A stretch of DNA of 64,000 nt, taken from assembly GCA_900315165.1 (NCBI GenBank), contig OMXZ01000015.1, positions 1 to 64,000 on the forward strand, written 5' to 3'. Numbering within the stretch: the stretch's first letter is position 1; each line of letters starts with the position of its first letter. A program made the position numbers and the translations under genes. This stretch comes from an uncultured Actinomycetes bacterium. GTDB lineage: Bacteria; Actinomycetota; Coriobacteriia; Coriobacteriales; Atopobiaceae. Under the pieces are notes generated by a model, which did no database searches, was not told where the DNA came from, and saw nothing but the letters and a program-made list of their open reading frames with translations. This document shows positions 3,105-8,110 of this stretch, one piece after another.

Positions 3105-3181
3105 GCCGTGCTCCTTTCCCTCATTTCGTGTGCGAGAAGGATACGGTGAGCCGACCGCGCCGCTGCCGAGAATTTCGGCAT

Positions 3182-3212
3182 TGCTTGCAGCAAACAGGCA
3201 GGCAGCTGGCAG
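3182..3212 (-). promoter_or_regulatory. Shared upstream element, copy B
   Basis: Second copy of the 31-bp block (30/31 identity to 1342-1372), 78 bp upstream of the paralog B start. The dyad is slightly longer here (TTGCT-TGC-AGCAA), and the word AGCAAACTG is repeated again just downstream on the + strand. Confidence 0.55.
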
Positions 3213-5925: not shown

Positions 5926-7113
5926 TTAGAGCAGGCGAAGCACCCCGCGGACCAGACGCTCGAAATCGTCCGCGTGCTCAGCCGCGACCTCGGCGACCTT
6001 GTCGTGCGTCGCCCCATCGCCCGCCATGTTGGTGGCCAGCGTAAGGCCGAGCACGTTCATGCCCAGGGCGCGCGCCATGATTGTCTCGCAGGCCAGGGAC
6101 ATGCCCACATAGGAGACGCCCATCTGGCGCATCATCGCAGCCTCGGCCTGGGTCTCCAAACAGGGGCCGAGCACGCCGGCATAGACGCCCTCCTCCACCG
6201 CGATGCCCGCGTCGTCGGCCACGCCGCGCGCGAGGGTCCGCAGGTAGGGGCTATAGGCATCGGTCATATCGACGAAGGGCGAGTCCACGTCGCGAATCTC
6301 GTCCCACTCGGCAAGCGGGTTGCGGCCCGTGAGGTTGATCTGGTCGGAGATGATGCCCAGGCCCGTGTGTGCGTTGCCCTCAATCGCGCCTGTCGCGCAG
6401 GCAAAGACGATGTCGCAGGCACCCAGACGATGGGCATGGCGGACGAGCGCCGAGACCTCCGCGGCGCTGTAGCCTTGGTAGAGGTGGATGCGGCCGGGAT
6501 ACACGATCACAGGCACGTCGTCCACGCTGCCGATGGTCGCCTCGAAGCTATGGCCCTCCATCGGCCGTGCCTCGGCCGGGAAGCCCTCGATGTCGTGATA
6601 GCCGATACGGCGGACGGGGCGCACGAGCGACGCCAGATGCCCGAGGCCTGTGCCCAGGATGATCGCGACGGGATGCTCCACCGACGGCTTGCACGCCTTG
6701 ACCACGTCTTCGTTCACCACGCAAATCCCCTCTTCCTGCAGCAGACGTGCAAAGACGCCCGCACCCTTCACCAAACGGCCCGTATAGCTACCATCGTAAA
6801 CGCACGTAGGGCCGCAGGAGGGGCTTTTCTCCTTCAAGACGGCGAGCGGCGCCCCACAGTCACGCGCCTTGTCCAGACAGGTCTGGGCACCGGCGGCAAA
6901 TGCCGAGGTCAGATTAGTGCCGTCGGCAGACCAGACGCCACCGTCGCGCTGTTCGGCGGGCGGTCGCGGCACGGGAAGACCCGCCTCCCGCTCGGGGCAG
7001 ACGCCGAGCGCCTCAACCTTTGCGCATAAAGAAAGGACCGCCCCCGAGGGCTTGGCCCCGCCGTCATACCGGCAGGCAATCCCTCGGAGGCAGTCGCTGA
7101 CGACGATGCGCAC
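5926..7113 (-). CDS. Fusion of DUF523 (TudS-like desulfidase) and purine nucleoside phosphorylase
   Basis: A 395-residue two-domain protein. Residues 1-145 are DUF523; its founding characterised member, TudS, is a [4Fe-4S] thiouracil desulfidase. The three cysteines expected to hold the cluster are present: C8 in VSDCLRG, C39 in GVCPE and C100 in KSPSCG. Residues 148-395 are a class I (trimeric) purine nucleoside phosphorylase, with ILGTGLG, GRIHLYQGY, INLTGRNPL, DMTDAYSP, a GPCLET loop, GMS and LATN. The Asn of LATN is the purine-recognition position in this family. Start is GTG at 7113 with TAAGG upstream, 10 bp after the SurA-like gene. Inference: cleavage of a (thio)nucleoside coupled to desulfuration of the base. 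PNP activity is confident; the DUF523 substrate is unknown. Confidence 0.85.
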   Translation of the reverse strand: MRIVVSDCLRGIACRYDGGAKPSGAVLSLCAKVEALGVCPEREAGLPVPRPPAEQRDGGVWSADGTNLTSAFAAGAQTCLDKARDCGAPLAVLKEKSPSCGPTCVYDGSYTGRLVKGAGVFARLLQEEGICVVNEDVVKACKPSVEHPVAIILGTGLGHLASLVRPVRRIGYHDIEGFPAEARPMEGHSFEATIGSVDDVPVIVYPGRIHLYQGYSAAEVSALVRHAHRLGACDIVFACATGAIEGNAHTGLGIISDQINLTGRNPLAEWDEIRDVDSPFVDMTDAYSPYLRTLARGVADDAGIAVEEGVYAGVLGPCLETQAEAAMMRQMGVSYVGMSLACETIMARALGMNVLGLTLATNMAGDGATHDKVAEVAAEHADDFERLVRGVLRLL

Positions 7114-7123
7114 GCGCGCGGCC

Positions 7124-8110
7124 TTATGAGGCGCTGGTCGTGGTCGCGGGCGAGCTGATAGCCGTGCTCAGCTGCACCGACACGTTGGCAAAGAGCTTGT
7201 TGTAGTAGTCGACCCACTCGTTGTTGGCCGCGGTGGTCTGGGCGGAGTACTCCTGATAGGCCACGTAGTAGGCAGCCTGGGCAGCCTCGTAGGTCGCACC
7301 CTCGTCGGCCGAGATGGTGTAGTTGGCCAGAGCGGTCGCGTAGGTGCCGGCGGGGTCGGCCCAGGTGCCCTTGTCGGCATCCCAGGCGTCGCCGGCCAGG
7401 CCGACGATGTAGTTGTAGTAGTCGACGGTCGCAGTGCTCTCCTCGCCCTCGGCGGGCTCGGACGGTGCGTCGGGCATGTCGCCGACCTTAGTGGTCACGA
7501 CGGACTCGCGCAGCTTGTTCATGGTCGCAGAGTCGGTGACCATCGTGACGACGGTGTCCTTGTCGAGGCCGTACTGGGAGGCGACGGTGTCGAAGTCGGA
7601 GCTGCCGAGCTGCTCCTGGGCGTACTCCGCGACCTCGTCGTCGGACGCCTCGATGCCCTGGTTCTTGGCCTCCTGCAGCAGAATCTGGTTGCGCGCGGCC
7701 GAGAGCACGCCGTCGGCGGCGGGCATGTTGTAGGTGTCGTCATCGTTCTTTGCCTGGTCGAGCGTGGAGGTGAGCTCGATCACGTCGCGGATGGTCACGT
7801 CGTAGCTCTTGCCGTTGTAGGTGTAGGTGCCCATCACGTCGTCGAGCTCGCCCTCGGTCACGGTCGTCTTGCCCGAGACGCTGCCGGACAGCACGCCGCC
7901 CTTCCCGAGAACGAAGTGGTCGAGCGCGATGCCCGCGGCCAGGCAGACCGCGGCAATCAGCACCCAGACGCCCGTCGGCAGACCGCGGCGCAGCTTGACC
8001 GGCTTCTTGCGGTCGGCCTTGCCGTCCTTGCGCCCCGCCTTGTCAGCCGCCGCCTCGGCAGTCTTCTTAGCGGCCTTTTCCTCATCCTTTTTGTCATCAT
8101 CCAGAGCCAC
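7124..8110 (-). CDS. Membrane-anchored SurA N-terminal-like chaperone
   Basis: A 328-residue protein with a Lys/Glu/Ala-rich cytosolic N terminus (1-40), one membrane helix at about 47-67 and an extracytoplasmic domain. That domain has the SurA/trigger-factor-like helical pattern, with LSAARNQILLQEAKNQGIEASDDEV typical of SurA_N. No parvulin isomerase domain follows; the rest is a low-complexity helical Ala/Tyr/Glu region ending Ser/Thr-rich. It probably binds unfolded exported proteins at the outer face of the membrane. Start is GTG at 8110 with AAGGAGG upstream. It is the gene before the DUF523-PNP fusion and likely co-transcribed with it. Confidence 0.7.
   Translation of the reverse strand: MALDDDKKDEEKAAKKTAEAAADKAGRKDGKADRKKPVKLRRGLPTGVWVLIAAVCLAAGIALDHFVLGKGGVLSGSVSGKTTVTEGELDDVMGTYTYNGKSYDVTIRDVIELTSTLDQAKNDDDTYNMPAADGVLSAARNQILLQEAKNQGIEASDDEVAEYAQEQLGSSDFDTVASQYGLDKDTVVTMVTDSATMNKLRESVVTTKVGDMPDAPSEPAEGEESTATVDYYNYIVGLAGDAWDADKGTWADPAGTYATALANYTISADEGATYEAAQAAYYVAYQEYSAQTTAANNEWVDYYNKLFANVSVQLSTAISSPATTTSAS

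Follow-up and report, generated by a model that had tools for sequence, protein, structure and literature searches.

The stretch of DNA analysed here (64,000 nucleotides; hereafter the window) encodes a protein in which a TudS-type desulfidase (DUF523) is fused to a class I purine nucleoside phosphorylase (PNP), two known enzymes in a previously undescribed combination. We consider it probable that this is a bifunctional RNA-salvage protein, with two halves that are both catalytically competent and functionally independent of each other. The gene is a single uninterrupted open reading frame (ORF) on the minus strand (7113..5926), with a GTG start at 7113, a TAA stop ending at 5926 and no internal stop, and the plus strand of 5926-7113 holds an unrelated frame with a stop and nothing more (Table 1). 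Both domains scored well above their curated Pfam cut-offs: PF04463 (2-thiouracil desulfurase, DUF523) covers residues 3-136 at 129.4 versus 34.7 bits (E = 1.3e-37), and PF01048 (phosphorylase superfamily) residues 148-393 at 127.1 versus 25.1 bits (E = 9.1e-37). The protein passed the NCBIfam purine-nucleoside phosphorylase model NF006054/PRK08202 (221.6 bits, cut-off 218) and missed the narrower TIGR01697 (inosine/guanosine/xanthosine phosphorylase; 186.4 versus 197.1 bits), which another fusion, L116, passed at 217.8 bits. An artefact of assembly or gene calling was rejected because about 86 genomes, isolates among them, have the same ORF. Both halves are under purifying selection, with dN/dS values of 0.08-0.35 for TudS and 0.02-0.20 for PNP (Nei-Gojobori method, close pairs with unsaturated dS).

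Table 1 The fusion gene, its domains and its conserved neighbours in the window
Feature	Position	Strand	Basis
TudS-PNP fusion gene, 395 aa	5926..7113	-	Single ORF and orthologues
TudS/DUF523 (PF04463) desulfidase domain, residues 3-136	6706..7107	-	Pfam (129 bits), alignment to 6z92, conservation in 58 fusions
Interdomain linker, residues 137-147 (VVKACKPSVEH)	6673..6705	-	Signature C.PS.EHP; AlphaFold
Class I (NP-I trimeric type) PNP domain, residues 148-393	5935..6672	-	Pfam, alignments, structure comparison
ACATGAIE loop, residues 238-245 (usual form TNAAGG(L/A))	6379..6402	-	Sequence alignment
SurA_N-like gene, 328 aa, upstream, 10 bp from fusion start	7124..8110	-	Conserved neighbour
HEAT-repeat-like gene, 195 aa	8151..8738	-	Conserved neighbour

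The N-terminal half corresponds to the whole of the stand-alone enzyme TudS (PDB 6z92-6z96; PMC10611767), to which the fusion adds a C-terminal PNP, and crystallised TudS 6z92 is its closest match by sequence. The cluster ligands, catalytic residues and substrate pocket assigned in TudS (PMC10611767) all have counterparts: C8, C39 and C100 align with the ligands Cys10, Cys43 and Cys104; E41, S97 and S99 with the catalytic Glu45, Ser101 and Ser103; and R15, Y16, P98 and Y106 with Arg17, Tyr18, Pro102 and Tyr110, which docking placed around 4-thio-UMP, at its phosphate, base and ribose (PMC10611767). Among 58 aligned fusions, C8, R15, C39, E41, S97 and C100 are kept in 57-58, residue 99 is serine in 53 and alanine or threonine in five, and Y16 is replaced by phenylalanine in four, with the four pocket residues retained in nearly all. 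A cluster and desulfidase activity are predicted for the fusion from this correspondence. TudS enzymes act on 4-thio-UMP with a kcat/Km about 2,200-2,650-fold above that for the free thio-base, and their proposed role is the recycling of RNase products of tRNA (PMC10611767).

In the PNP half, Thr155, His188, Arg208 and His210 occupy the positions of human PNP S33, H64, R84 and H86; Tyr212, Ala240, Phe280 and Glu320 those of Y88, A116, F159 and E201; and Met338, Ser339, Asn362 and His370 those of M219, S220, N243 and H257. R208, H210, Y212, F280, E320, S339, N362 and H370 are conserved in 57-58 of the 58 fusions, including the residues that read the 6-oxopurine (Glu320, 58/58; Asn362, 57/58). 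The substrates of class I PNPs are 6-oxopurine nucleosides; these enzymes are not known to cleave pyrimidine or uridine-type nucleosides, and the PNP half is expected to have the same 6-oxopurine specificity. CATGA replaces the NAAGG loop of class I PNPs, and Cys239 lies at the position of human Asn115. Cysteine occurs there in 52/58 fusions and 12/15 TudS-less relatives from the same clade, whereas all 27 outgroup and other-family PNPs have asparagine. Its retention in the TudS-less relatives indicates that ACATGA marks the clade and not the fusion, and we rejected the motif as a mark of thio-adaptation for the same reason. The sequence-only reading had proposed a DUF523/TudS-like domain joined to a class I PNP in one protein, with C8, C39 and C100 in place, the PNP phosphate and base loops kept and an unusual ACATGAIE motif, all of which was borne out; it had named no strand.

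An AlphaFold model of the fusion, computed from an 81-row alignment of relatives, gave a mean pLDDT of 94.9 and a pTM of 0.92, with no low-confidence segment in the linker. The matches listed in structure searches were to the PNP half only, and the TudS half was compared by sequence. Thermus thermophilus PNP (6tk9), also the closest PNP by sequence, superposed with Z = 34.3 and an rmsd of 2.0 over 249 residues at 39% identity. This superposition starts near PNP residue 19, implying that TudS stands in for the usual PNP N-terminal stretch. Compared with class I trimeric PNPs (6tk9 and human), the fusion shares the fold and, except in details, the phosphate, ribose and base contacts, but has TudS in place of the first ~20 residues and differs by Asn115 to Cys, Ala117 to Thr, Gly119 to Ala and Ser33 to Thr (human numbering).

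The same domain order was found in other genomes: about 86 of the 297 sampled from the order (a hand count of full-length rows in the search) encode a full-length fusion, at 52-86% identity. These include the isolates Olegusella massiliensis KHD7 and Parafannyhessea umbonata KHGC19, and O. massiliensis (L004) and a genome of the window's own genus (G194) have the same fusion sequence lengths and identities, which suggests that the window's genome is, in GTDB terms, a relative of Olegusella. Fusions occur in nearly all genomes of family f1, which named loci identify as Atopobiaceae, and in 13/65 of family f10, probably Coriobacteriaceae. Among 396 genomes sampled across the phylum, no other family had a full-length fusion, and plasmids and phages yielded none either. 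A Propioniciclava match (L033) that seemed to hold both halves was rejected, being a PNP alone that ends a long read-through frame, with no TudS match. Genomes carry at most one DUF523 domain, with two exceptions: G123, where a pair of contigs is apparently duplicated, and G183, where a gene is seemingly broken at contig ends. The locus runs in a conserved order from a HEAT-repeat gene through a SurA_N-like gene (Pfam match below cut-off; SurA_N_3, E = 0.01) to the fusion. Several lineages have an isocitrate/isopropylmalate dehydrogenase-like gene between the first two, and across two families the SurA_N-like and HEAT-like genes stay beside the fusion.

The fusion arose once: in the PNP tree, a single starred clade (98*) takes in every fused PNP and, nested among them, some PNP-alone proteins. 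In family f9 (L136:1838-2626, minus strand; L145:3508-4350, plus strand), tudS and pnp are separate genes that lie side by side, in the order of the fused domains and in an orthologous neighbourhood, and the fusion was therefore most simply formed in place. The adjacency of the two genes appears older than the fusion. In the f9 PNPs, leucine replaces Glu201 and serine or histidine replaces Asn243; base recognition by these PNPs probably differs from that of ordinary PNPs.

The fusion has since come apart repeatedly: at least two lineages keep PNP but lack TudS, and two keep TudS but lack PNP. In g14 and in several f10 genomes, the PNP-alone proteins are encoded at the fusion locus, following the SurA-like gene, and start with the interdomain C.PS.EHP, some with the last TudS residues; that of L133 retains the end of TudS together with the linker: MVDERTVAFCEPSFEHP. 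We interpret C.PS.EHP at these N termini as the scar of a lost TudS half. At the same locus, g6 (L144) has TudS alone and g16 (L109) has TudS with a truncated PNP remnant beneath Pfam recognition. No DUF523 whatever is found in g14, which has kept its PNP, and the TudS job is dispensable there. Some PNP descendants in g14 (L115, L147, L148, L186) have moved or strongly diverged, with changes at the equivalents of His64 or Tyr88. Among the 65 f10 genomes, 13 have fused TudS, 49 standalone TudS, three neither and none both (Fisher P = 3e-11, shared ancestry ignored), and the two forms were found together in none of the order's 297 sampled genomes. The f10 genomes that lack fused TudS thus mostly have a standalone copy. 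The sampled standalone TudS of PNP-alone f10 genomes belong to a separate TudS lineage (99*), and we rejected them on that ground as fission partners of the lost half. Since the two forms never occur together in the sampled genomes and the tested standalone form is of separate lineage, selection seems to act on the TudS function in its own right. Several f10 genomes (G054:C3, G160:C37, G228:C2, G240:C1) have standalone tudS within ~5-7 kb of thiI. The fusion gene of G028 (L108:3001-4202, minus strand) has, relative to L096, lost one base from a T run in its PNP half, which is either a sequencing error or the sign of a young pseudogene.

From these data we infer two uncoupled activities. The TudS half would bind a [4Fe-4S] cluster, with C8, C39 and C100 as its ligands, and the sulfur of 4-thio-UMP (or 4-thiouridine) from tRNA would be ligated to the free iron of the cluster, where Glu41, Ser97 and Ser99 would help swap it for water, yielding UMP and sulfide. 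The PNP half, expected to form a trimer of the usual class I type, would convert inosine- or guanosine-type nucleosides to base and ribose-1-phosphate. No intermediate would be handed between the halves, and the benefit of fusion would lie in the co-production of two enzymes acting on products of the same RNA turnover. The conserved residues and purifying selection make it very likely that both halves work; independent activities are the best account because the halves have no substrates in common and either one can be lost independently. ThiI, the enzyme that makes s4U, is present in 292/297 genomes of the order, which gives the cells a 4-thio-UMP source of their own, and the substrate should be present; being near universal, ThiI is uninformative as a co-occurrence clue. 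Counting against this account, the model's pTM of 0.92 points to domains fixed relative to each other, more than simple tethering would require, and the older adjacency of tudS and pnp hints at some functional link. Two further points weigh the same way: the genome's second, DeoD-type PNP means that the fused PNP could be specialised, and g14 manages with PNP and no TudS.

The sequence-only reading had gone further, linking phosphorolysis of a nucleoside to desulfurization of its base. In such a route, PNP would phosphorolyse 6-thioinosine or 6-thioguanosine and TudS would desulfurize the freed base, or the steps would run in reverse order, with channelling between them. The fusion itself, the older gene adjacency and the confident relative placement of the domains by AlphaFold speak for this route, as does the fact that class I PNPs accept 6-thiopurine nucleosides. 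We nevertheless consider it quite unlikely: no 6-thiopurine is known from tRNA, the pocket conserved in the fusions fits a pyrimidine nucleotide, namely a thiouridine phosphate, the halves were lost independently of each other and no publication describing the route was found. TudS, moreover, favours nucleoside monophosphates and performs worst on free bases (PMC10611767), the very class of substrate that phosphorolysis would supply, and the proposed linkage is not supported. An equally slim probability attaches to a single-chain thio-nucleoside salvage machine in which both sites share a thiopurine or other sulfur-modified purine nucleoside as intermediate. From the thio-nucleoside salvage originally suggested, nucleoside recycling survives as likely and TudS does point to sulfur-modified RNA products, but one linked thio-nucleoside pathway is not supported.

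A slightly less improbable reading, though still an unlikely one, is that the PNP half has shifted to a modified nucleoside, for example from tRNA breakdown, with TudS recruited for RNA-modification clean-up. This would accord with the cysteine, threonine and alanine at Asn115, Ala117 and Gly119 (the cysteine being the clade marker described above), with a DeoD-type PNP that already handles ordinary purines and with the separate f9 PNP that lacks the base-reading Glu201 and Asn243. However, Glu320 and Asn362 are all but invariant in the fusions, and the window's protein still scores above the curated PRK08202 cut-off. We give least credence, regarding it as very unlikely, to a PNP part that serves mainly as an oligomerising or binding module and redirects TudS to tRNA or an oligonucleotide. 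RudS provides a precedent for a partner domain that alters the TudS substrate (PMC11417400), and TudS is the N-terminal partner of several unrelated domains in the order, but the PNP catalytic residues are conserved beyond the needs of a scaffold and PNP survives alone after loss of TudS.

RudS resembles the fusion in joining an N-terminal TudS to a second domain in one chain (PMC11417400). Its partner is DUF1722 and it acts on tRNA 4-thiouridine, whereas the window's fusion has no Pfam match to DUF1722 and carries instead a PF01048 PNP. TudS proteins are 58.9% stand-alone and 40.1% DUF1722-fused (PMC11417400), leaving ~1% for all other architectures, among which the PNP fusion falls. No paper describing it was found in a literature that consisted mostly of sources outside subscription journals, and titles and abstracts on thiopurines and gut bacteria held nothing on TudS. 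Other families of the order carry TudS-GNAT (PF13302; L080:823-1920, minus strand, L066, L069, L070, L073 and L092) and TudS-DUF5662 (PF18907; L064:892-2007, minus strand, and L065) proteins, the architectures of L065 and L066 being assigned from sequence likeness alone. These share the N-terminal TudS but have other partners and represent separate events, and we saw no published description of either. Such promiscuity of TudS as an N-terminal partner weakens any inference from the fusion alone. The workings of TudS desulfidases, whose iron-sulfur cluster takes up sulfide, were deciphered only recently, and the PNP fusion is fixed in a bacterial family of the gut and mouth. It offers an experimental system for either an altered TudS substrate choice, as with DUF1722, or the tying of two salvage enzymes, with its split relatives as natural controls. 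Coupling, if true, would matter for how microbes deal with thiopurine drugs, and a single-chain salvage machine would mean that gut and oral Coriobacteriales could desulfurize thiopurines, drugs included.

Finally, we rejected the fused PNP as the sole PNP of its genome, which also encodes a DeoD-type PNP and an MTA/SAH nucleosidase. At L094:1507-3536 (minus strand), the gene for the former lies immediately downstream of an adenosylhomocysteinase-like gene. Elsewhere in the window, a 51-base direct repeat (1322-1372 and 3162-3212, 80% identical) occupies two regions between annotated-looking genes; it may be a dispersed repeat by which ORFs in these regions are spuriously extended.
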